Part shown: positions 6,827 through 37,453 of the stretch, piece after piece
Position numbering within the stretch: position 1 is the stretch's first letter
Layout: each line of letters starts with the position of its first letter
Virus record (IMG/VR): IMGVR_UViG_3300031746_000051
Coordinates: 1-42,856 of that record
Direction: 5' to 3' (one strand)
Source of the DNA: a virus
DNA length: 42,856 nt
The notes under the pieces: model-generated
The model's database searches: none
What the model saw: only the letters and a program-made list of their open reading frames with translations
What the model was told of the DNA's origin: nothing
Made by a program: the position numbers and the translations under genes

Positions 6827-7244
6827 CAATCCTTTCAACTTGTTTCGATTCGACCGCCACTGACGGGGCGACAGTCATTCCATTTGGGGATGGCTCACGC
6901 CATTTCAAATCCTTATCTTCAACGAGCCTGACAAAACCTTGTGCCGCCAACTCCAAACCTCGCGATCGATCGAGTGCGCGTATCTCGCCCACCTGGCCGC
7001 GAACATCCAACGGGTGGAACACATCCCGCAGGTACTCGAACTGTGCAACGTCAGGATGCAACTCACCTGTGGCCGATCTCTTATCGGCGCCCGGGCAATA
7101 TGAGTCATCGACCACTTCGATATAACCGGATCGAATCAACTGCTCGATGTCCGCCTGACTCGGCAGCTCCTTGATGTCACCTTTCTTGCCGCTGACGGCC
7201 AGGGGGTACTCTATCGTTCGTAAGTATCTGTACAACCTGCCCAT
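6768..7244 (-). CDS. Unknown tail-module protein with an internal duplication
   Basis: 158 residues, start ATG 7244 with AAAGGGGAC upstream. I do not recognise a family. It contains two copies of a ~42-residue unit: YRYLRTIEYPLAVSGKKGDI...LIRSGYIEVV (about 5-46) and FEYLRDVFHPLDVRGQVGEI...LAAQGFVRLV (about 69-110), each with YLR, PLxVxGxxGxI and a final GxxxxV. The 3' part contains a 24-bp GMAYA element in frame (read here as WREPSPNG), after which the sequence is poorly structured and overlaps the start of G, so the original gene may have ended near the element. Confidence 0.7.
   Translation of the reverse strand: MGRLYRYLRTIEYPLAVSGKKGDIKELPSQADIEQLIRSGYIEVVDDSYCPGADKRSATGELHPDVAQFEYLRDVFHPLDVRGQVGEIRALDRSRGLELAAQGFVRLVEDKDLKWREPSPNGMTVAPSVAVESKQVERIDDESDNQGTIAGSASEGAD
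6879..6902 (+). repeat. GMAYA element in the 158-aa tail-module gene
   Basis: 24-bp copy TCCATTTGGGG + ATGGCTCACGCCA; read on the coding strand as WREPSPNG. Lies 53 bp upstream of the chaperone G start. Confidence 0.8.
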
Positions 7245-15834: not shown

Positions 15835-15983
15835 TACTCGTTCCCCAAGAACACGTTTGTTTGAGCGCCCCACGCCGGCTGAAATGCGAAGGCGCCGGTC
15901 ATGTCAAGATCGAAGATCATCCCCCAGAAGAACGCTCGATCGTGATGGTCTATCGTTCCATCAACCAAACCGAATAATCTCAT
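15834..15983 (-). CDS. Small 49-aa protein coupled to gpW-like gene
   Basis: Short frame MRLFGLVDGTIDHHDR ... FFWGMIFDLD ... AQTNVFLGNE. Its ATG overlaps the stop of the repeat protein (ATGA) and its TAA overlaps the gpW-like start (TAATG), so both flanks show coupling. Contains a hydrophobic run FFWGMIF of too little length to span a membrane. No family recognised. Confidence 0.65.
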   Translation of the reverse strand: MRLFGLVDGTIDHHDRAFFWGMIFDLDMTGAFAFQPAWGAQTNVFLGNE

Positions 15984-17350
15984 GTCGCCACCTCCTGAGT
16001 TTGCGTATTGGCGTCTTCCGATATCACCTGGGTCGTAGCGACAGAACCATCATCTTTGTAGCACTTCAGGGTTCCATCCGTCTTACTGATCACAGCCTTT
16101 TTGAAAGATCGCCGCCAATCTTGAACGCTCATCTCCCGGAAATTCGACGCCACACCCACTGGTTCGGTGATCGAAATTGAATCCAATCCATCGGCGGCCA
16201 GTTTGACCTTCCCACTACTCACCGTGATCGCTGACCCGTCGCTGGTTCTTGCAACAGCCGTGGCCGCGGCGTCCGCCTGCTTCAACGGGAACGCCGTTGT
16301 TTCATCGAACTTTGCCGCTGTGATCGCATCATCGGCGAGCGTCATCGCACTGCCAACCGCCGCCGGACTGGCTGGCAGATTATCCGTCTTGGCTTTTATG
16401 GCCGCTACCTCCGTATCGAGGTACCCTGCTATGGTCGCCAGTTGTGCATCAATGTCCGAGTCATCAGCGGGATCTGCCGGCAGGTTGTCGGTCTTGGCCT
16501 TTATGGCCGCTACCTCTGTATCGAGATATCCTGCTATGGTCGCCAGTTGTGCATCGATGTCCGAATCGTCGGCGGGATCCGCTGGCAGGTTGTCCGTCTT
16601 GGCCTTTATAGCTGCCGTATCTACCTTGACTGCCGCCACATCTGTATGGATGTCAGCCAACCCGCCAGCCGCATCGTCAAGTAGGTCAATACAGGTCCTT
16701 TCAGTGGCTCCATAATCAGCGGTGATATGACCATCAATCGTTCCGACGTGGACGTGGACGGCTGCAACATCAGTAGCGATTCCATCAACTACTGTGTCCA
16801 CGGTTGCCACCGGTGCATTGAGGTTATCGGTTATGAGCTTGGCGGCACTGTTGGCTACGGCGTGACCTGTATTTACTACTTCGTCCCAGATGGCATCCAC
16901 GCCGGCGGCAGAAAGGGCGGGTGTCGCCGCATTGAGACTTGTCTTCTGCAATGCGCCAAAGTCTATATTCGCCTGCTCGGCAACAGCAACGTCGAGTTTA
17001 TCCGTCCCCATCAAAGAATCATAGACGTTGGCGGGAAGAACCATATAGTCATCCCACACTGGAAGGAATGTGGCCGCCTCCGCCATCATTACCCGCAGTA
17101 TTCCCACAGTGTTCATATCAGTAGCATCTAATGTGACTTTGAACATGCCGTAAGCATCGAGAACACTCGCCGTTACCGTTTGGTGTCTAATGGCGCCCGC
17201 AGCACCATTCTTGCTTAGGAATATGCCGGTTGTGGCGTGATCTATCGAGGTTATGATACCAGTCCCAATTTCGAGAGAAACACCATCCGTTTTGTCCAGA
17301 AACGGCCCGAACATTATGGTACACGCAGTACTCTGTTTCAAAACCTTCAT
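15980..17350 (-). CDS. Virion fibre-like protein with 35-residue repeats
   Basis: 456 residues, low in aromatic residues. The N-terminal ~110 residues look like a beta domain (VSLEIGTGIITSIDHATTGIFLSKN ... VLDAYGMFKVTLDATDMNTVGILRVMMAEAATFLPVWDDYMVLP), a pattern seen in phage proteins of unknown role. The middle carries repeats of the form AAIKAKTDNLPADPADDSDI then DAQLATIAGYLDTEV (about 2.5 units of 35). The C-terminal part contains KVKLAADGLDSISITEP and WRRSFKKAVISKTDGTLKCYKDDGSVATTQ, a common C-terminal tag of such proteins. Likely a fibre or spike; position upstream of the portal makes a head location possible. Function is inference. Confidence 0.75.
   Translation of the reverse strand: MKVLKQSTACTIMFGPFLDKTDGVSLEIGTGIITSIDHATTGIFLSKNGAAGAIRHQTVTASVLDAYGMFKVTLDATDMNTVGILRVMMAEAATFLPVWDDYMVLPANVYDSLMGTDKLDVAVAEQANIDFGALQKTSLNAATPALSAAGVDAIWDEVVNTGHAVANSAAKLITDNLNAPVATVDTVVDGIATDVAAVHVHVGTIDGHITADYGATERTCIDLLDDAAGGLADIHTDVAAVKVDTAAIKAKTDNLPADPADDSDIDAQLATIAGYLDTEVAAIKAKTDNLPADPADDSDIDAQLATIAGYLDTEVAAIKAKTDNLPASPAAVGSAMTLADDAITAAKFDETTAFPLKQADAAATAVARTSDGSAITVSSGKVKLAADGLDSISITEPVGVASNFREMSVQDWRRSFKKAVISKTDGTLKCYKDDGSVATTQVISEDANTQTQEVAT
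16377..16615 (-). repeat. 105-bp tandem DNA repeat in the fibre-like gene
   Basis: Two complete and one partial 105-bp units encode 35 residues each (TEVAAIKAKTDNLPADPADD then SDIDAQLATIAGYLD). Units differ mainly at third codon positions. Copy number could vary by slippage or recombination. Confidence 0.85.
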
Positions 17351-20538: not shown

Positions 20539-22493
20539 AGGTGAGGTATGTCATCCAGCCAACCTTCTTGTAAACCACGCTTGATCCTATTCACGCGTGG
20601 GTTCCGTGATTCGAGCCTTTGCAGCAATCGCGCCCCACAAACCTCAGCCGCGAATGCAGCATACACCTTGCAGTCCCACAAGTGGTTGGCTCGATACTCA
20701 CTTTTCAAAACCCAAATCAATCGGTCACGGCCTCGGATTCTCATCACCCGTTGCTCTTCGCTCGACAACTGGATCAAGACGTCATCGGTGGTATCTCTGT
20801 GCAGGTGATAGTACCCGGACCCGGGATTCGTCGCTTCAAACAACAGGCGGTACAGCCGGTTCTTCAGGTCATCCACATTGAGGTCATAACGAGTCAAGGT
20901 GCCCCCTGCGACCTTGACGGCCCTGAACAGCCGCATGCGAACCGTATCATCTCCGCGAACCGGAACAATCGGCAGTTCGGCGCACTGGCGACAAAAATCC
21001 AACACGACGTCCGGCCTGAATCCGCAATCAACTCCAATCTGTCGCAAAGGTAGTGACCGCATCGGGTCGTTAGCCAACGGCCAGGGTCTCCCCAAAAACT
21101 CGCGAACGATCTGGTAGTTGTCGAGCTCGCTCGTATCGCCAGTTTCCAATCGTCCCTCCCAGATCGACCACGCCTCCGACAGGTAGCCCCAGCCTTCGAC
21201 TGAGATCCATACATGGTCCATCTGAATGTCAACGCCGGCGGTCAGCATCTGAACACCGGCCGGCACAATACCCGCAGGATACTGCCCGATGTGCGTAAGC
21301 AGCCTGCTTTGTTCCGTCGCCTTCTCTGATTCCTTCCACGAATCCGACAGTTGCGAGTTGATGAAGTCCTGGCGGCCTCCAACATTGCCGGCCTTCATCA
21401 ACCGCATGGCATCGGACCAGTCCGCGGCAAGATCATCTACGGTCTGGATCGCGGGGTGGAGCATCAAAGCGGTAATGCGAAAACTGCGATATGTTGTTTG
21501 CGCCGGCTGACCCGTGAGCAACCCATGCTCGTCGAGGCTACATGATGATGGTACGTATCGACCGGCACAGGTCGCCAGCCAACGGTCCGTCTCAGACCAT
21601 TTGTGATGACAATGGCAGCAGGCATAGTTGGCCCGACCTCCACGCCGATAGACATCCGCCGACAAAAGCTCGCCGGACTCACTCTTATCGAGAATCACGC
21701 ACGCCCAACTCGGCCGCTGCCAGCGATTGCAGTGAGGACACGGCACCCACCATTCACAGCAATCACCCTTTTTCCATTCACGGTCGAATAGGTCATCCAG
21801 CAGCACCGGTGTGCTGAGAGCCAACAACTTCGACCGACCCCTGAACGTTCGCAACCGTTTGCGACCGAGGTTCACCGCGTCGCCCTCTCGGCCCGTTCTC
21901 TCCTCGTACTTGCCGACCTCGTCCAAGCACAGGCGACAGATCGGCTTGCCGGCCATCTCGGCAGCCGAGCCTGCAAACAGCAGGTAAAAGGCCATGTTGT
22001 CAAACATCGTCATCTTGCCGATGTTGATGTTCTTGACGTTGCCGGCGGTGTGCTTGAGCAATCGTAGATTTTCCTCGAACATAGGCTTGATGTTCGTCTC
22101 CACACGTTCAGACGCATCTTTCTCACGCGGCATAACCAGTCCCATCGGCACCGGGTCGCAATCGACTGTGTATCCTACCCAGCCCGTTGCCACCGTTGAC
22201 TTGCCCGATTGACTGCAGGCTGAAACCCATATTTCACGAGTGGCTGCATCGTTGAGACATTCAATGATCGGTACCCAGAAGGGTCCGTATTCTTGCGACC
22301 AATGATCGGATAGGCCATGAACCTTTTGCGACAGAAAATAGTCACTTTCCATCCAATCCAACAACCGCTTGCGGCCGCCCAGCGTCAAGACCTCCAATTC
22401 CTCCGGCTGGATCGCTAATGGTCGTATCGATCGTCTCTTCGTGTCCATTGGCGTAAGCCATCCCCAAGCGGACTTCCCTAACGGATTCGACAT
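20535..22493 (-). CDS. terL: Terminase large subunit (gpA family)
   Basis: 652 residues. ATPase: SACSQSGKST (91-100, Lys98, a deviant Walker A typical of the gpA family) and ICRLCLDE (185-192, Asp191-Glu192, Walker B). Extra Cys sites CPHC (252-255) and CCHC (292-295). Nuclease domain starts LTAGVDIQMDHVWISVEGWG (Asp422). N-terminal LSDHWSQEYGPFWVPIIECL is the gpA-type entry region. The start is uncertain: ATG 22493 (GGAAAG upstream) or ATG 22448. A 24-bp GMAYA element (22449-22472) separates the two, and in this frame it reads SAWGWLTP. Translocates DNA into proheads and cuts it. Confidence 0.93.
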   Translation of the reverse strand: MSNPLGKSAWGWLTPMDTKRRSIRPLAIQPEELEVLTLGGRKRLLDWMESDYFLSQKVHGLSDHWSQEYGPFWVPIIECLNDAATREIWVSACSQSGKSTVATGWVGYTVDCDPVPMGLVMPREKDASERVETNIKPMFEENLRLLKHTAGNVKNINIGKMTMFDNMAFYLLFAGSAAEMAGKPICRLCLDEVGKYEERTGREGDAVNLGRKRLRTFRGRSKLLALSTPVLLDDLFDREWKKGDCCEWWVPCPHCNRWQRPSWACVILDKSESGELLSADVYRRGGRANYACCHCHHKWSETDRWLATCAGRYVPSSCSLDEHGLLTGQPAQTTYRSFRITALMLHPAIQTVDDLAADWSDAMRLMKAGNVGGRQDFINSQLSDSWKESEKATEQSRLLTHIGQYPAGIVPAGVQMLTAGVDIQMDHVWISVEGWGYLSEAWSIWEGRLETGDTSELDNYQIVREFLGRPWPLANDPMRSLPLRQIGVDCGFRPDVVLDFCRQCAELPIVPVRGDDTVRMRLFRAVKVAGGTLTRYDLNVDDLKNRLYRLLFEATNPGSGYYHLHRDTTDDVLIQLSSEEQRVMRIRGRDRLIWVLKSEYRANHLWDCKVYAAFAAEVCGARLLQRLESRNPRVNRIKRGLQEGWLDDIPHL

Positions 22494-23595
22494 CCTTTGA
22501 CTTTCCGGGTAATCCTTGTGTCAATAATTCATATATGCCGTCAAGTATCTTAAGCGCCTGATTCGGCAGCAACAGCTCATCAGGTATCTTCTGCTGCTGC
22601 ACTATCATATCTCTGCGCCACATATCGAGTATTTCTTTGACCCGTTCAAGGGGTTGATTGACGATCATCATAGGTAGTTCCCGCACGAGCCGGTCCAGAC
22701 TGTGGATCAGGTTTTGATACCGCGCCACTTGACCTTCGATCACGATGGTGCGGTCCAAGAGATCGCCCCTGTGCTTCTGTAATTCGAGCGCCAACTTTTC
22801 GGCCTTGATCGCCCGCAAGGGGTCGCGGTCGCCCAAGATGTCTTTTGTTCGGGATAGTTTCTTCGCAACGAATTCTCCATACCAATTGATCGTGCTTTTC
22901 AGATCAAACGTGGCATCAACGTTTCGCGGCAACTGTTGTTTCGTGAACCATTCATATATGGTCTGGCGAGTGGTCGAAAAGAGGTCTGCCAACTGACTGA
23001 TGGTCACCCGATCGTAGTTGCTCTTGTCGGCAGAAGCCTCGCCCTCGTCGCGCAGAAATATCTCTATCGCTCGAATCGCGGCCTGGTTGCCTTCTTTTGC
23101 CGCATCGACCAAGGCTTTCTTGCTCGCCACTATAGTGACGAGTCGGGCTTGCCCCCAGAGGTTGCTCGCCTCGATGTCGCTGTCGAGTAACTCCCGCAGT
23201 TGCTGGCCATGTTCAAAGTCGAGTTTCTTGGCAGCCTGGCTGATCGTCAAGATCGCGCTGGCACACTCCTCGAGATTCTGGAGGAATTGACCTCTTTCCC
23301 ACGCCTTGGCCAGCACATCGTATCGCTCAATCAGCTCAGCTAACGGCTGATCGAGACCCGCCACCTTATCGGCCGCCGTCAAATTTACACAACCGTAAGC
23401 AAGCGACTTGACTCTGACCGCAGAGATCGGCAGACGCATTCGCTTGCGACGCTTTTTGCCCGACCGCGGACGTGAATTTTTTCCACTTGTGGCATAGGCC
23501 ATCCCTGAGTGGAGGGATGCCTTACGGCACTTGCGTGCGACCGGAGGTTGATCATCAATCGCTTTCTTCTTCACGGTGGCATCCTTGCTCATCAT
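22342..23595 (-). CDS. terS: Terminase small subunit-like DNA-binding protein
   Basis: 417 residues, long for TerS. A helix-turn-helix sits near the middle (RVTISQLADLFSTTRQTIYE then WFTKQQLPR, about 193-221), as in gpNu1-type proteins, flanked by helical regions. The N-terminus (1-60) is Lys/Arg-rich and includes a GMAYA pair (SGMAYATSG). The C-terminal ~47 residues after LGMAYANG overlap TerL in another frame and lie beyond a second element, so the pre-insertion gene may have ended near 22470. The first ATG (23595) has no Shine-Dalgarno and is six bases from the first GTCNN array. Start and end are therefore uncertain; the core assignment rests on the HTH and its place before TerL. Confidence 0.7.
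   Translation of the reverse strand: MMSKDATVKKKAIDDQPPVARKCRKASLHSGMAYATSGKNSRPRSGKKRRKRMRLPISAVRVKSLAYGCVNLTAADKVAGLDQPLAELIERYDVLAKAWERGQFLQNLEECASAILTISQAAKKLDFEHGQQLRELLDSDIEASNLWGQARLVTIVASKKALVDAAKEGNQAAIRAIEIFLRDEGEASADKSNYDRVTISQLADLFSTTRQTIYEWFTKQQLPRNVDATFDLKSTINWYGEFVAKKLSRTKDILGDRDPLRAIKAEKLALELQKHRGDLLDRTIVIEGQVARYQNLIHSLDRLVRELPMMIVNQPLERVKEILDMWRRDMIVQQQKIPDELLLPNQALKILDGIYELLTQGLPGKSKDVESVREVRLGMAYANGHEETIDTTISDPAGGIGGLDAGRPQAVVGLDGK
22449..22472 (-). repeat. GMAYA element at the terS/terL junction
   Basis: 24-bp element, identical to those at 23742-23765 and 37634-37657. It is open in both the terS frame (RLGMAYA) and the terL frame (SAWGWLTP), and lies in the overlap of the two genes. 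Confidence 0.85.
23490..23529. repeat. Inverted pair of GMAYA elements inside the terS start
   Basis: A minus copy (23490-23513) and a degenerate plus copy (23506-23529) share eight bases and together form a hairpin (CATCCCT, GAGTGG loop, AGGGATG). Encodes part of the N-terminal KASLHSGMAYATSG of the terS product. Confidence 0.75.
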
Positions 23596-23601
23596 AAAAA
23601 G

Positions 23602-23686
23602 GTCTTGTCATGTCTTGTCGCGTCAAGTCATGTCTGGTCGCGTCGCGTCATGTCCTATCACGTCGTGTCAGGTTCAGTCGCGTCGC
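23602..23686 (+). repeat. GTCNN array 1 (17 units)
   Basis: Strict 5-bp period of GTC followed by two variable bases; 15 units have GTC, one has ATC (23657) and one GTT (23672). Preceded by AAAAAG and followed by GTGTAAGATTCTTC. The array ends six bases before the terS ATG, so it forms the leader of the terS mRNA if transcribed from upstream. Confidence 0.93.
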
Positions 23687-23697
23687 GTGTAAGATTC

Positions 23698-23723
23698 TTC
23701 CCTTAGGGATGGCTAACGCTGTC
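23698..23723 (+). repeat. GMAYA element in the array 1-2 spacer
   Basis: CTTAGGG-type copy with a modified end (GGCTAACGCTG). The 23 bases 23701-23723 are absent from the otherwise matching spacer between arrays 4 and 5. Confidence 0.85.
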
Positions 23724-23741
23724 ATTCGTTCGCGGCGGCAC

Positions 23742-23765
23742 TCCGCTTGGGGATGGCTTACGCCA
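23742..23765 (+). repeat. GMAYA element, second in the array 1-2 spacer
   Basis: Exact consensus copy. The 24 bases are absent at the matching place in the array 4-5 spacer, where GGCGGCAC joins ATTGTCACCC directly. Confidence 0.9.
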
Positions 23766-23791
23766 ATTGTCACCCGTTCTTGTTGAAAAAG

Positions 23792-23871
23792 GTCTTGTCA
23801 TGTCGGGTCTTGTCATGTCCCGTCGAGTCTGGTCTCGTCAAGTCCAGTCAGGTCTGGTCGAGTCCGGTCGC
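23792..23871 (+). repeat. GTCNN array 2 (16 units)
   Basis: Sixteen units, all with GTC, no two neighbouring units alike. Begins GTCTT GTCAT like arrays 1, 3 and 4, after GTTGAAAAAG; ends GTCGC GTGTAAGAGTCTT. Confidence 0.93.
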
Positions 23872-23929
23872 GTGTAAGAGTCTTTATCCTCTGGCGGCGG
23901 CACATTGTCACCTGGTCTTGTTGAAAAAG

Positions 23930-24024
23930 GTCTTGTCATGTCTTGTCAGGTCTTGTCTTGTCATGTCTTGTCATGTCGCGTCCGGTCGGGTCTTGTCAAG
24001 TCTCGTCTTGTCTGGTCGGGTCTT
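23930..24024 (+). repeat. GTCNN array 3 (19 units)
   Basis: Nineteen units, all with GTC, the longest array; rich in the TT dinucleotide (8 of 19). It runs into the 3' end of the 62-aa gene on the minus strand, whose last residues (DPTRQDET) and stop codon it encodes. It lacks the GTGTAAGA trailer. Confidence 0.93.
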
Positions 24025-24184
24025 GCTGTTTGAGACGGTCCAAGCGGCGTTTCCGCTCCCAGTTGCGGTGTTTCAGCTCCCGGCTCAAGACTAAGGCTTC
24101 GTAAAGATCGTCGGGGGGCAGAATTTTTCTTGTCGCTTCAAGAGCTCGCCGCAGTTGCCGTGTTGACATATCTTCGATCTTCAT
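23996..24184 (-). CDS. Small helical protein ending inside GTCNN array 3
   Basis: 62 residues, ATG 24184 with AAGG ten bases upstream. MKIEDMSTRQLRRALEATRK ... ILPPDDLYEALVLSRELKHRNWERKRRLDRLKQQ is a charged, helical sequence. The array supplies its last ~8 residues. It is the first gene upstream of the arrays and terS; unknown function, possibly DNA binding from its charge. Confidence 0.6.
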   Translation of the reverse strand: MKIEDMSTRQLRRALEATRKILPPDDLYEALVLSRELKHRNWERKRRLDRLKQQDPTRQDET

Positions 24185-26245: not shown

Positions 26246-26311
26246 TGTGTGTTCCTTTATCAAAAAAGATGTTTGTGTCTTCAGGGTCCCATCCTTGCTT
26301 TTGAAAAAAAG

Positions 26312-26396
26312 GTCTTGTCATGTCTTGTCAGGTCAGGTCGCGTCACGTCAAGTCAAGTCGCGTCAGGTCGGGTCTCGTCGGGTCGTGTCGTGTCGC
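26312..26396 (+). repeat. GTCNN array 4 (17 units)
   Basis: Seventeen units, all with GTC. Begins GTCTT GTCAT GTCTT after a run of A and ends GTCGC GTGTAAGATTCTTC exactly as array 1. Sits 67 bp upstream of the 129-aa early gene. Confidence 0.93.
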
Positions 26397-26455
26397 GTGT
26401 AAGATTCTTCATTCGTTCGCGGCGGCACATTGTCACCCGTTTCGGTCTTAAAAAG

Positions 26456-26535
26456 GTCTTGTCGTGTCTTGTCATGTCACGTCATGTCTTGTCAGGTCCG
26501 GTCACGTCTTGTCAAGTCTGGTCATGTCGTGTCGT
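26456..26535 (+). repeat. GTCNN array 5 (16 units)
   Basis: Sixteen units, all with GTC; second unit GTCGT instead of GTCAT. Preceded by TTAAAAAG. Ends in TTTTAG without the GTGTAAGA trailer, like array 3 at the other locus, so in each locus the last array is the one without a trailer. Confidence 0.93.
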
Positions 26536-26925
26536 TTTAGTTGCGCCTATCCCAGTGTCGTCCGCGACGCGGGCCGACATAGCCACTATAAAAGCATCGT
26601 TTCGACTTGGTTAAGGGTAGGATCATGTGACTTTTGGGTTCTCTTTGTTTATCCTTTTGGGACCACCAAAAACACACGTAATCGTAACATCTCAAATGCC
26701 TGCCCCAGACCCAATTCCACATTGATGCAAACGATGTGCGCCTGTTCTCGATCATCCTTCATTCTAAATTCAAACAGTCCGCTCTGTTCTGATATCCGCA
26801 TCCTGCAACAGAGCGGACGCCGTCCTTGAGATATTGGCAGGCATTTACTCCTTGATGTGTGTATTATAGATGGGGCGGTTTGGAAGAGCTTATGGGCACC
26901 GCCCCACCATCGGGAGGAAACGGGT
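26536..26925. other. Intergenic region with two inverted repeats
   Basis: A 72-codon minus-strand frame (26537-26755) ends at the array border; it is Trp/Arg-rich and unlikely to be a gene. GTCCGCTCTGTT (26777-26788) and AACAGAGCGGAC (26807-26818) form a perfect 12-bp inverted repeat with an 18-base loop. GGGGCGGT/ACCGCCCC (26872-26905) lies just after the lipoprotein stop and may terminate it, though no clean U-run follows. Confidence 0.6.
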
Positions 26926-34088: not shown

Positions 34089-34171
34089 TTATCTTGCCCA
34101 TCTACCCAATTTTTGCTATCATCAAGGCGGACTATGCTCACACCCCTGCCAATAGGCGGGATGGATCCCTC

Positions 34172-34195
34172 TGGCGTAAGCCATCCTCAAGCAGA
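34172..34195 (-). repeat. GMAYA element
   Basis: 24-bp minus-orientation copy with two changes from the consensus (CATCCTCAAGCAGA end). Nearest of the region to the ligase start. Confidence 0.8.
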
Positions 34196-34202
34196 GAAGA
34201 TA

Positions 34203-34243
34203 TGGCGTAAGCCATCCCCTGGCATAAGCCATCCCAAAGCGGA
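34203..34243 (-). repeat. Truncated plus complete GMAYA element in tandem
   Basis: A 17-base truncated copy (34203-34219, TGGCGTAAGCCATCCCC) runs directly into a complete 24-bp copy (34220-34243). This looks like one copy inserted into the end of another, or slippage. Confidence 0.8.
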
Positions 34244-34248
34244 AATCA

Positions 34249-34321
34249 GAAAGAAGGCCCGCCCTGCGGCTTATCGCCTCTGCCGACAGAGGCGACTCGG
34301 ACAGCGGCCGGACGGGCCCTT
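34249..34321 (-). terminator. Terminator-like hairpin 1
   Basis: Outer arms GGGCCC-region (34314-34319) and AAGGCCCG (34254-34261), inner perfect hairpin CGCCTCTG-CCGA-CAGAGGCG (34275-34294); followed on the minus strand by TTCTTTC. Confidence 0.6.
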
Positions 34322-34350
34322 GTATGGAGGAAGCATACGACGGAACTGTC

Positions 34351-34399
34351 GAAAGAAAATAGCCCGCTCTATCTGGTCTGGCATCCGCAAGAGCGGGCT
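34351..34399 (-). terminator. Terminator-like hairpin 2
   Basis: AGCCCGCTCT (34361-34370) pairs perfectly with AGAGCGGGCT (34390-34399), 19-base loop; minus strand continues ATTTTCTTTC. Confidence 0.7.
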
Positions 34400-34432
34400 G
34401 GGCAATGAGGATTATGCCGAGGAAAAAACCAG

Positions 34433-34456
34433 TGGCGTAAGCCATCCCCAAGTGGA
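34433..34456 (-). repeat. GMAYA element abutting hairpin 3
   Basis: Minus-orientation 24-bp copy differing from the consensus only by A/G at the variable base. Its end merges into the A-run that is the U-run of hairpin 3. Confidence 0.85.
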
Positions 34457-34521
34457 AAAAAAGACGGCCCGCTATGGTTTGATTTCTCGCCTGGGGCGAG
34501 TTGGCATCAGCACGCGGGCCG
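34455..34521 (-). terminator. Terminator-like hairpin 3
   Basis: Outer CGGCCCGC/GCGGGCCG (34465-34472, 34514-34521), inner CTCGCC-TGG-GGCGAG (34486-34500), followed on the minus strand by TCTTTTTTT. The best terminator of the three. Confidence 0.72.
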
Positions 34522-34709
34522 AGGTTCGCTATCAGGTTGTCCGAGCAAGTTGATATTGCTGATGCCATGACTATGAATCCTTTCCGTTAAACCATGAACC
34601 TATGATCCCCAATTCGCGGGGAGAAGTCAAGGAAAATCTTGGGTTTCCAAGAAGAAATCTCTAATTTCATGGGCGACAGTGACTTACAAAGACAATAGAC
34701 AATCAAATC

Positions 34710-35096: not shown

Positions 35097-35232
35097 TGGA
35101 TCGTAGCATAAATTCCGAGGTGGTGGTGATGGAAATCGGCTTGCTCATCTTCTCGTGATTGATCTGTGGAGATCAAAGGCCTGCAACGAAAAACCAATCG
35201 TCCCACCGAACATATTTTTGGAGGTATTGGTG

Positions 35233-35724
35233 ATGCAAAAGACAATTTTGGTACTGCTGACTATTGTTTCCGGATGTGGTTCGGTTAGCCATAAGCTAAC
35301 CCTCTCGGAGAGCTACAAACCAGAAACCGGCGCACTAATCGAAGTAGGCAAAGTGACCAATGAGACCGGCAAGGTATTCGACATTGACCTGGAGCAGATG
35401 CTAACGGATGCACTTACTAACGCTCTGAGAAAAGAAAAACTATTACCCGTAGATGGGGATGGTCACAGACTGGTACTGACCAGTAGAATCGTGGAATATA
35501 ACAAAGGAAGCGCGTTCAAGAGGTGGCTGCTTCCGGGATGGGGAACTACCGTAATAGCCATAGAAGGTGATTTGGTGGACGGGCAACAAGTGGTAGGCTC
35601 TTTTCGAGCCAAGCGCACTATCTCCGTCGGTGGCGGCTACACGATAGGCGCGTGGAGAACAGTTTTTGCAAGTATAGCGCGAGACGTGGTAAAAGATTTT
35701 CGCTCTAAGCGATTAGTCAAATAA
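35233..35724 (+). CDS. DUF4410-like lipoprotein
   Basis: 163 residues from ATG 35233 with GGAGG eight bases upstream. Signal peptide MQKTILVLLTIVSGCGSV with lipobox VSGC. The mature part (GALIEVGKVTNETGKVFDID then LEQMLTDALTNALRKEKLLP ... HRLVLTSRIVEYNKGSAFKR ... GWGTTVIAIEGDLVDGQQVV ... ARDVVKDFRSKRL) matches the DUF4410 type of periplasmic lipoproteins. Divergent strand and private promoter mark it as a moron, likely expressed from the prophage; a role in envelope change or superinfection exclusion is inferred. Confidence 0.82.
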   Translation: MQKTILVLLTIVSGCGSVSHKLTLSESYKPETGALIEVGKVTNETGKVFDIDLEQMLTDALTNALRKEKLLPVDGDGHRLVLTSRIVEYNKGSAFKRWLLPGWGTTVIAIEGDLVDGQQVVGSFRAKRTISVGGGYTIGAWRTVFASIARDVVKDFRSKRLVK

Positions 35725-35753: not shown

Positions 35754-35806
35754 CGCTTGGTGATAGGCGAACCAAGCGAAAATGGCATTATCGGTTAGAC
35801 CGATAA
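35754..35806. terminator. Two hairpins between convergent genes
   Basis: CGCTTGG/CCAAGCG (35754-35760, 35772-35778) and TTATCGGT-TAG-ACCGATAA (35788-35806). They lie between the stop of the plus-strand lipoprotein and the stop of the minus-strand 91-aa gene. No strong U-run on either strand. Confidence 0.55.
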
Positions 35807-35827
35807 GAAGTCCTCTGGCTGGCCTGA

Positions 35828-36103
35828 TTATTCCAGTCCCAATCGTTTGTCATATTCGGATAGAGCCGCTTCGGCGAATTGACATAGCGCAAGGAACTCC
35901 TGCTCATCAGTAACTGGTTCATCATACCAGACAAATCGACTGAAAGTTTGATCAGATCGGCAACTATATTCGATCTCGCCAATCACGGGCGAATCTTCAT
36001 CAAACACTTCGCAAATAAATACTGGATGCTGGCTGTGAATTATGTAAGTGCGTGAGCCTGTTTCATTCTCCCCTATGAGCCACTCGTCAATTCGCGGTAA
36101 CAT
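35828..36103 (-). CDS. Small acidic protein, unknown
   Basis: 91 residues, overlapping the preceding gene by 17 bp. MLPRIDEWLIGENETGSRTY then IIHSQHPVFICEVFDEDSPV ... FSRFVWYDEPVTDEQEFLAL ... AEAALSEYDKRLGLE. Looks folded (alternating strands then helix). No family recognised. Second gene behind attenuator leader 1. Confidence 0.65.
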   Translation of the reverse strand: MLPRIDEWLIGENETGSRTYIIHSQHPVFICEVFDEDSPVIGEIEYSCRSDQTFSRFVWYDEPVTDEQEFLALCQFAEAALSEYDKRLGLE

Positions 36104-36680
36104 TTTGCACCTCCACCGGCTTATATTTGAGACCGTGACCCCCCTCTTTGTAAAGATTCATCCAACCACAGTTGACGTATTGATATACTTCAGCCCACTT
36201 GCTCTGTTTCTTTTTGCGGAGAATGTTGCCCTGATGCTCAAATTCAAACATTGCACCACCTTTATCAAGTACATCGGTGAAACATTCGTATTCACAGGCC
36301 TGTGGATGATTGCGGGTACCTGACCATTCAACCCATCTAACTCTGCAATTATGGTATATCTTAGTCGCCTTTGCGACTGCTTTAATGGATCTTTGACGCA
36401 TCAGAACAAGTTCTTCGGCAGTCTCATAAACTGATTCGTCAATTCCATCGCCGCCAATTTCAAATTCGCCCGCCAAAATCGCAAGGTGGGGACGAATGTC
36501 AAAGAAGTCAGTTACGTTATAATGACAACTTGTGTGGTGCCATTCAGCGGGCGATAAGGTTTCTCTCAATGCCTTAACTGTCACTTTCAACACCTTCGCC
36601 GCCTTGCTCGCCGGCAACAAACCACAGTGATATGCTTCAATTGCGTTATTGCTCATCGCGTAATTGCTATACCCACTCAT
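36087..36680 (-). CDS. SGYSNYAMSNNA-type phage protein
   Basis: 197 residues, ATG 36680 with AGGAGG. The opening MSGYSNYAMSNNAIEAYHCG is shared with a group of phage proteins of unknown function. A helix-turn-helix-like LLPASKAAKVLKVTVKALRE follows, then a strand-rich half with conserved-looking Cys and Trp (YHNCRVRWVEWSGTRNHPQA, CEYECFTDV). Its expression is expected to depend on the leader and terminator unit just upstream. Confidence 0.72.
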   Translation of the reverse strand: MSGYSNYAMSNNAIEAYHCGLLPASKAAKVLKVTVKALRETLSPAEWHHTSCHYNVTDFFDIRPHLAILAGEFEIGGDGIDESVYETAEELVLMRQRSIKAVAKATKIYHNCRVRWVEWSGTRNHPQACEYECFTDVLDKGGAMFEFEHQGNILRKKKQSKWAEVYQYVNCGWMNLYKEGGHGLKYKPVEVQNVTAN

Positions 36681-36694
36681 CGGCCCAGCCTCCT

Positions 36695-36842
36695 AAAAAA
36701 GATCGCCCGCGGCATCTGAGCTGGACACTCGAAGATAGTCCGCGGGCGGTCAGTTATTCTCTCTACTTGACTTGTCGTGATTTGAGTGTCCAGCTCATAA
36801 TTTACCACTGGTAATCATATCCCAAGAGCGCCCCGGCGTCAA
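36695..36842 (-). promoter_or_regulatory. Promoter, leader peptide and attenuator 1
   Basis: Minus strand: -35 TTGACG (36842-36837), 17-base gap, -10 TATGAT (36819-36814); leader frame MSWTLKSRQVK (36798-36763); terminator stem GACCGCCCGCGG/CCGCGGGCGATC (36751-36740, 36712-36701) and T6 (36700-36695), directly before the AGGAGG of the 197-aa gene. A second 13-bp stem, GAGCTGGACACTC/GAGTGTCCAGCTC (36796-36784, 36730-36718), crosses the terminator, so the two cannot form together as simple hairpins. Confidence 0.78.
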
Positions 36843-37096
36843 GAAAATTCAGGCCAAAATCTGAAAAATCAGAAAATTTCGCATTCTTTTTTTAATAACC
36901 ATCCAGACTGCAAAAAGTCTCTCTATAAGGGATAAGAAGGCCTCTGGCTGGCCCGCTGCTGGCCGATCCCTCCACAGGGCACATTCTTCCCGTAACTCAG
37001 TTCCTCGCAGCCGCCGGCTTAGCCGTTGATTTGCCTGGGCCAACGTAGAAGGTGGTCTAACTGAATCCGGGAATTGGTTAATGGCATGAGCCATCC
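36843..37096. other. Intergenic region between the two leader units
   Basis: No gene accepted. An 81-aa minus frame (36849-37094) begins inside a GMAYA element and is Arg-rich. GATAAGAAGGCCTCTGGCTG (36931-36950) repeats, with one change, a sequence at 35802-35821 just after the hairpins there. Confidence 0.6.
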
Positions 37097-37105
37097 CTAA
37101 GTGGA
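37082..37105 (-). repeat. GMAYA element at the end of the 69-aa gene
   Basis: CTTAGGG-type copy; its TAG supplies the stop codon of the 69-aa gene (HQST then stop). Confidence 0.8.
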
Positions 37106-37306
37106 TTGGTGATTCCTATCTTCACGCCAATACCGTTGTCCTTCCGCATTTATAATCAGTTCTTTATGGTTTTCATCTTCCCAGATTTCTTCCGGCGTAA
37201 GGATTTGGGTCGTTCCTTCCCAAATTATGGAAACAATAAAATCCTGCTTGTATTTCTTGAGTTCCTCGATAAGTTGACCAACCGTCATTGCATTTTTCGG
37301 TATCAC
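37097..37306 (-). CDS. Small protein behind attenuator 2
   Basis: 69 residues from GTG 37306 with GGAG six bases upstream: start IPKNAMTVGQLIEELKKYKQ, DFIVSIIWEGTTQILTPEEI, WEDENHKELIINAEGQRYW. The frame extends to 37351, but that would run through the terminator stem. Resembles small phage proteins with a MTVGQLIEELKKY helix. Ends in the GMAYA element. Confidence 0.68.
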   Translation of the reverse strand: MIPKNAMTVGQLIEELKKYKQDFIVSIIWEGTTQILTPEEIWEDENHKELIINAEGQRYWREDRNHQST

Positions 37307-37316
37307 GTCTATCTCC

Positions 37317-37453
37317 AAAAAGCGATCGCCCACGGTCTTTAAGTTGGACACTCGAAGATGATCCGTAGGCGATCAGTTAGAATCATTGCCTGTCGTGACT
37401 TGAGTGTCCAACTCATAAGGTCATATTCTACCTCGATGAGCAGACGACGACAA
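37317..37453 (-). promoter_or_regulatory. Promoter, leader peptide and attenuator 2
   Basis: Homologue of leader 1. -35 TTGTCG (37453-37448), 17-base gap, -10 TAGAAT (37430-37425); leader frame starting MSWTLKSRQ and ending 26 codons on (37416-37339); terminator stem GATCGCCTACGG/CCGTGGGCGATC followed by GC and T5 (37321-37317), then GGAG of the 69-aa gene; crossing stem GAGTTGGACACTC/GAGTGTCCAACTT. Base pairs differ from leader 1 in compensating pairs. Confidence 0.78.

Follow-up and report, generated by a model that had tools for sequence, protein, structure and literature searches.

Leader-peptide attenuators of amino-acid biosynthesis combine a short reading frame with alternative hairpins and a terminator before the gene. 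In leaders of the pT181 type, which form either a terminator (off) or an antiterminated structure (on) ahead of the gene, the antiterminator lies in a 5' hairpin and is described as sequestering the 5' half of the terminator stem, with an antisense RNA driving the switch (PMC4878617). The account of P4 CI immunity that we used presents a processed, trans-acting CI RNA with seqA and seqC as targets (PMC4825925). HK022 put, of about 70 nt, is summarized as two stem-loops; they bind to RNA polymerase and suppress terminators at a distance (PMC9378689). For AbiF in C. difficile, the outlined layout is promoter, structured RNA, terminator, ribosome binding site and gene (PMC12373285).

Here we present two homologous leaders, each about 110 nt long, found on the minus strand of a phage genome (unit 1, 36690-36802; unit 2, 37313-37420). 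Judged from sequence, each leader is apparently able to fold either as a transcription stop or as a rival hairpin, and for this reason the two probably act as small built-in switches.

The phage genome

The window, i.e. the whole stretch of DNA that was analysed, is the virus record IMGVR_UViG_3300031746_000051 of 42,856 bases. It looks complete, since its ends carry a 253-base direct terminal repeat. Most of the genes are on the minus strand, and a GpA-type terminase, a J-like tail protein, an NAD-dependent DNA ligase, a topoisomerase-like protein and a tyrosine integrase are encoded. On the plus strand, a 189-aa ORF with a DUF4410 match (E 6.6e-9) is located at 35155-35724, surrounded by minus-strand genes.

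Two clusters, at 23568-24070 and 26278-26576, are comprised of direct-repeat families of 121-133 nt that are 60-78% alike, and tandem 105-nt repeats (16362-16615, 80-85% alike) lie inside the long minus-strand ORF 15980-17350. The 23-nt repeat GATAAGAAGKCCTCTGGCTGGCC occurs at 35802-35824 and 36931-36953 in copies that are 96% identical, the second being placed upstream of unit 1. In addition, a short dispersed repeat with a consensus of about CCRCTTRGGGATGGCTTACGCCATT carries a TGGC-TTAC-GCCA hairpin. The sequence GGATGGCNNRNGCCA was matched 12 times in the window (expected 0.00 in shuffles), on the plus strand at 6888, 7773, 12181, 23751 and 37643, and on the minus strand at 22463, 23504, 34186, 34217, 34234, 34447 and 37096. 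Several copies are intergenic and four are within ORF 34122-34568. The 23-base core of this repeat was absent from viral_contigs, and phages and plasmids gave no full match to it.

Organization of the leader units

All features of the units and the genes that follow them are on the minus strand. In both units, the 5' to 3' order is arm A, a linker, arm B, arm A', arm B', a T-run and the ribosome site of the next gene. Arms B and B' are the 5' and 3' halves of the terminator stem, while A' sits in the terminator loop and pairs with A. Unit 1 begins with arm A (GAGCTGGACACTC, 36784-36796), located at the 5' end of the leader and overlapping the ATG of a putative leader frame. It continues with B (36740-36751), A' (GAGTGTCCAGCTC, 36718-36730), B' (36701-36712) and a T-run (36695-36700) that adjoins AGGAG at 36690-36694. 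The corresponding arms of unit 2 are A (GAGTTGGACACTC, 37402-37414), B (37363-37374), A' (GAGTGTCCAACTT, 37341-37353) and B' (37324-37335). Its T-run (37317-37321), followed by GGAG, is short and begins two bases past the stem, which counts against reading the unit as an attenuator. Gaps between consecutive arms in units 1 and 2 are 32 and 27 nt (A to B), 9 and 9 nt (B to A'), and 5 and 5 nt (A' to B'). According to their coordinates, the four arms of a unit overlap nowhere.

The arms and their pairing are directly observed in both units. Helix A:A' of unit 1 has 13 bp, or 14 if a flanking U-A is counted, and that of unit 2 has 13 pairs, including one G-U. These helices are the 13-bp stem that the sequence-only reading had drawn across the terminator. 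In B:B', 11 of 12 positions are paired in unit 1, with one C.A, and all 12 in unit 2, with one U.G. A simple terminator scan with a loop limit of 8 listed neither of the two full terminators.

Just upstream of each unit there is a sigma-70-like promoter-like site with a 17-bp spacer, TTGACG-17-TATGAT (36814-36842) before unit 1 and TTGTCG-17-TAGAAT (37425-37453) before unit 2, matching the consensus, by which alone they were identified, in 10 and 9 of 12 positions, respectively. Such sites were not commoner in the scan (24 found) than in shuffles (18.0 +/- 4.3 expected), so that the value of the two is in their position alone. At the sequence level, both units thus have the layout of an attenuator, with a promoter-like site, a leader and an intrinsic terminator directly before the ribosome binding site. 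The two homologous units of the initial description, each with a promoter with a 17-bp spacer and a terminator ending just before a ribosome site, are present on the minus strand. As anatomy, we consider the units to be a well-supported prediction.

Extent of homology and downstream genes

Units 36690-36802 and 37313-37420 align as homologues. Strong homology extends from TTATGAG, near the presumed transcription start, to GGAG of the ribosome site. The 80 nt upstream of the units show weak similarity, with a score that 13 of 1000 shuffles attain, and the 80 nt downstream show none (296 of 1000).

Unit 1 is followed on its 3' side by gene 1 (36087-36680, 197 aa), whose product aligns with an ORF of the unannotated gut phage record MT835946.1 at 38% identity across the aligned part and has a poor predicted fold (mean pLDDT 41). 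Gene 2 (37097-37306, 69 aa), with a GTG start, follows unit 2. Protein comparison found the two products unrelated, in accordance with the earlier statement that the units precede two unrelated genes. Because homology is confined to the leader and the proteins share nothing, the conserved part is the transcribed leader, which speaks for a function at the level of RNA.

Pairing, chance expectation and covariation

To estimate chance occurrence, the window was scanned for the motif A-B-A'-B'-T with exact Watson-Crick pairing, A of at least 13 and B of at least 9, and 250 dinucleotide shuffles were used as a control. One exact motif was found, that of unit 1, compared with none in the 250 shuffles; unit 2 was missed because of its G-U pairs. 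The whole window has three inverted repeats that reach 12 bp within 110 nt, and two of them are the A:A' stems. The core GAGTGTCCA has four copies in the window, all in the units (expected 0.27). Over both units, 98% of cells in the pairing pattern are paired, versus 26-38% when the pattern is slid by 1-3 columns. Both the terminator and the crossing helix are kept in the two copies, as had been proposed.

Direct comparison of the units reveals two fully compensatory pairs, one per helix, C-G to U-A in A:A' and G-C to A-U in B:B', and the co-varying positions noted initially are thereby confirmed. Remaining differences in the arms all keep or gain a pair. With two sequences only, column shuffles reach the observed covariation in 107 of 500 cases, which is not significant. 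Simulations that placed as many transitions in each arm as were observed kept every pair in 1.1% of trials when started from unit 1 (P about 0.011); when started from unit 2, the pair count of unit 1 was reached in 17% (0.17). Taken by itself, covariation between n = 2 sequences is weak support.

Search for relatives

No third copy or relative of the units was found in the viral, genome, phage and plasmid collections searched, from which records very similar to the window may be absent. Neither the exact core in viral_contigs, nor the gapped core with CTTC, nor the longer core in genome_contigs led to a homologue, and the best matches of the units among phages had E values of 0.7 and 8. A Deinococcus plasmid match of unit 1 (H22, E 0.3) was rejected, as it does not contain the arms. 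In Rfam, which holds a C4 family, cmscan of the units gave no family match at gathering score; below it there were 4 chance-level matches at E up to 10, all to families other than P4 CI/C4.

A relaxed dyad pattern disclosed 10 viral and 14 genome stretches. The genome matches, 13 of the 14 having been read, were all rejected as repeats of a different type from Microbacterium or Microbacteriaceae; stretch L029 was covered by covariance models only. Repeats in L017-L028 and L030, from Microbacterium and related genomes, have TGGACACTC...GAGTGTCCA arms and are unrelated to the units. Most repeats of this type are flanked by acacgccg/cggcgtgt-like arms, and they are in tandem in L019 and L020. Among the viral stretches, L009 and L013 were rejected as clusters of short repeats, and in the remaining ones no shared leader was seen.

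When the window and 29 loci were searched with covariance models R1 and R3, good matches were limited to the two units. With R1, their opposite strand scored as well (E 0.0008 and 0.006), as expected from an inverted repeat, and so did L009 (E 0.006), which was rejected as a cluster of repeats sharing the dyad and to which R3 gives E 3.5. Queries with gene 1 alone, with the tail protein, or with gene 1 together with its gut-phage relative revealed no relatives in viral_contigs. The terminase has three relatives there, 48-51% identical, and the motif is absent from all three. One G+C-rich match of the motif scan, in L003, was rejected because it has no T-run. The leader was not found by motif scan in MT835946.1.

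Within these searches, no further copies with compensatory changes appeared, an outcome that the initial reading had named as refuting it; this weakens generality and does not remove the structure. The notion of a portable cassette is upheld only in part, as two copies, 620 bp apart, precede unrelated genes in one genome and none was found elsewhere.

Folding and the proposed mechanism

The full leaders fold better than shuffles (z of -2.98 and -3.68). Forced folds of unit 1 have -37.2 kcal/mol with A:A' and -35.3 kcal/mol with B:B', and those of unit 2 have -36.1 and -37.9 kcal/mol, respectively, i.e. the folds are about 2 kcal/mol apart in each unit and in opposite directions. Each unit therefore has, facing its terminator, an alternative structure (A:A', 13-14 bp) of near-equal energy. 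The folding programs exclude pseudoknots, so that these energies cover one helix at a time and never A:A' plus B:B' jointly; for this reason we infer that A:A' opposes B:B'. In growing-chain folding, the probability of A:A' is 1.0 until most of B' has emerged. At equilibrium with B' out, unit 1 is about 0.98 in A:A' and unit 2 about 0.98 in B:B', and this opposite lean is a point against the attenuator reading.

We estimate at about 60% the probability that each unit is an mRNA 5' leader working as a cis-acting transcription attenuator, with A:A' opposed to the terminator. Transcription would start just upstream of arm A. Arm A' would leave the polymerase before B' and pair with A over 13-14 bp, so that B would already be enclosed in a loop by the time B' is synthesized. 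This enclosure would hinder the 12-bp B:B' stem, and the polymerase would read on into the gene. If A were held by a protein, an RNA or a ribosome, or if A:A' formed slowly, B:B' would fold, the T-run would follow, and transcription would end just before the ribosome site. The switch would presumably be set by an outside signal. With no base common to the arms, the two helices would oppose each other topologically, in the form of a pseudoknot of order A-B-A'-B', instead of competing for one strand. With an A:A' loop preformed around B, the 12-bp B:B' stem, which is more than one turn, would need threading and would be kinetically disfavoured.

The initial reading of the locus as two homologous attenuator-like leaders is borne out to the extent that a predicted terminator and a crossing helix are found in both. 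If the mechanism is right, this would be a compact attenuator in which the helix opposing termination occupies the loop of the terminator and not its stem. Its use twice in one phage, before unrelated genes, would show how RNA leaders are reused by phages as modules, and with two natural copies the cis pairing rule could be tested by swapping arms.

Alternative readings

Unlikely, although it fares best among the alternatives, is an RNA feedback in trans, in which loop A' of a terminated leader would bind nascent A of either unit, free nascent A' and cause termination, much as antisense RNAs do in the attenuators of pT181 and in P4 immunity. Complementarity would allow this both within units (A1:A'1 -24.7, A2:A'2 -20.7 kcal/mol) and between them (A2:A'1 -22.3, A1:A'2 -16.4 kcal/mol), and since A' follows A only after about 60 nt, an RNA acting in trans would have time to bind. 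Also in favour are the integrase of the phage and the fact that the scanned proteins, which represent part of the ORFs, included no recognised repressor. Against this reading, one of the two cross pairings is weakened by the compensatory change, which fits pairing in cis, and cis pairing should also prevail over trans pairing when RNA is scarce. It is improbable, if conceivable, that topological-trap antitermination and trans cross-talk of terminated products through complementary loops (YUGGACA with UGUCCAR) together form a phage RNA control circuit without a protein repressor, for feedback or immunity.

A leader-peptide attenuator also has to be considered, as MSWTLKSRQ opens a putative leader frame in both units. 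In unit 1 the frame is MSWTLKSRQVK*, 11 codons and then TAG (36763-36798); in unit 2 it is MSWTLKSRQAMILTDRLRIIFECPT*, 25 codons that cross B and A' (37339-37416). A ribosome on this frame would cover A, block A:A' and allow termination or, if stalled, prevent it. The nine amino acids are identical and their codons have exactly three differences, all in the third position, as the initial reading had noted; furthermore, the ATG is at the start of A and the TAG of unit 1 is 11 nt before B. Of the three changes, one coincides with the compensatory position in A:A' and is accounted for by that pairing, and the other two are third-position transitions. No Shine-Dalgarno sequence precedes the ATG of unit 1, where the duplex energy (-2.8) is no better than the median for random sites (-2.8). 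The SD-like bases of unit 2 fall within the -10 region, before the point where the transcript is expected to start. The frames part after codon 9 and the stop differs in position relative to the stems, so with 11 and 25 codons one translation-coupled mechanism does not fit both units. In unit 2, a ribosome translating through B and A' would break both helices. Thus, the units resemble the attenuators of amino-acid biosynthesis in having a short frame, alternative hairpins and a terminator before the gene, but differ from them in the absence of a ribosome site, of a run of regulatory codons (neither frame has a run of one amino acid) and of frame conservation past codon 9. We regard this reading as quite improbable, and the proposed selection on the peptide is not upheld, given so few changes and the features above. 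The simplest account is that the nine-codon sequence is kept as RNA and not as peptide, although leaderless translation of the frames may occur.

It is very unlikely that each unit is a small structured RNA, placed with a leaky terminator ahead of a partner gene and binding the product of that gene, as in type III toxin-antitoxin systems or AbiF-RCd22. The order of promoter, structured RNA of ~110 nt, terminator, ribosome binding site and gene matches, and a pseudoknot is possible, but the RNAs are homologous and the two genes unrelated, their products have no toxin match in PADLOC, Pfam or PHROGs, tandem repeats were not seen within a unit, and Rfam matches stay at chance level.

Least probable of all, DNA operators formed by the near-palindrome GAGYTGGACACTC, two inverted copies per unit with half-sites GAGT/ACTC, would bind a phage regulator and make the RNA stem a by-product, in keeping with the confinement of the core to the units, but the centre spacings, 66 and 61 bp, differ by about half a helical turn, both copies in one unit carry the paired change, and the terminator stem, its T-run and its compensatory change are left unexplained.

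Comparison with known systems

Returning to the cis-acting attenuator, its likeness to pT181 consists in a 5' leader ahead of a gene that would form a terminator or an alternative fold, with the putative antiterminator in a 5' hairpin. In contrast to the antiterminator of pT181, which in the available description shares the terminator stem, arm A of the units pairs with the terminator loop and has no base in common with the stem, and the units are not known to have an antisense RNA. Control of a phage operon by RNA pairing and premature termination in a leader would be the feature in common with P4 CI, as far as that account goes; unlike in P4 CI, the units show pairing in cis only and match no Rfam family at gathering score. 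HK022 put, as summarized, likewise consists of two related structured leaders near phage promoters, put being about 70 nt and the units about 110 nt long, but each unit holds its own terminator with a T-run and a crossing helix in the order A-B-A'-B'. Type III toxin-antitoxin systems and AbiF differ from the units, downstream of which no toxin family was found.

Compared by their descriptions, none of pT181, P4 CI, HK022 put and AbiF-RCd22 fits on defining features. The closest working analogue appears to be the pT181 attenuator, with phage parallels in P4 CI immunity and HK022 put and a parallel of layout in AbiF-RCd22. From their sequence, the units are predicted to be transcription attenuators in kind, with a variant layout that places them outside any named family.
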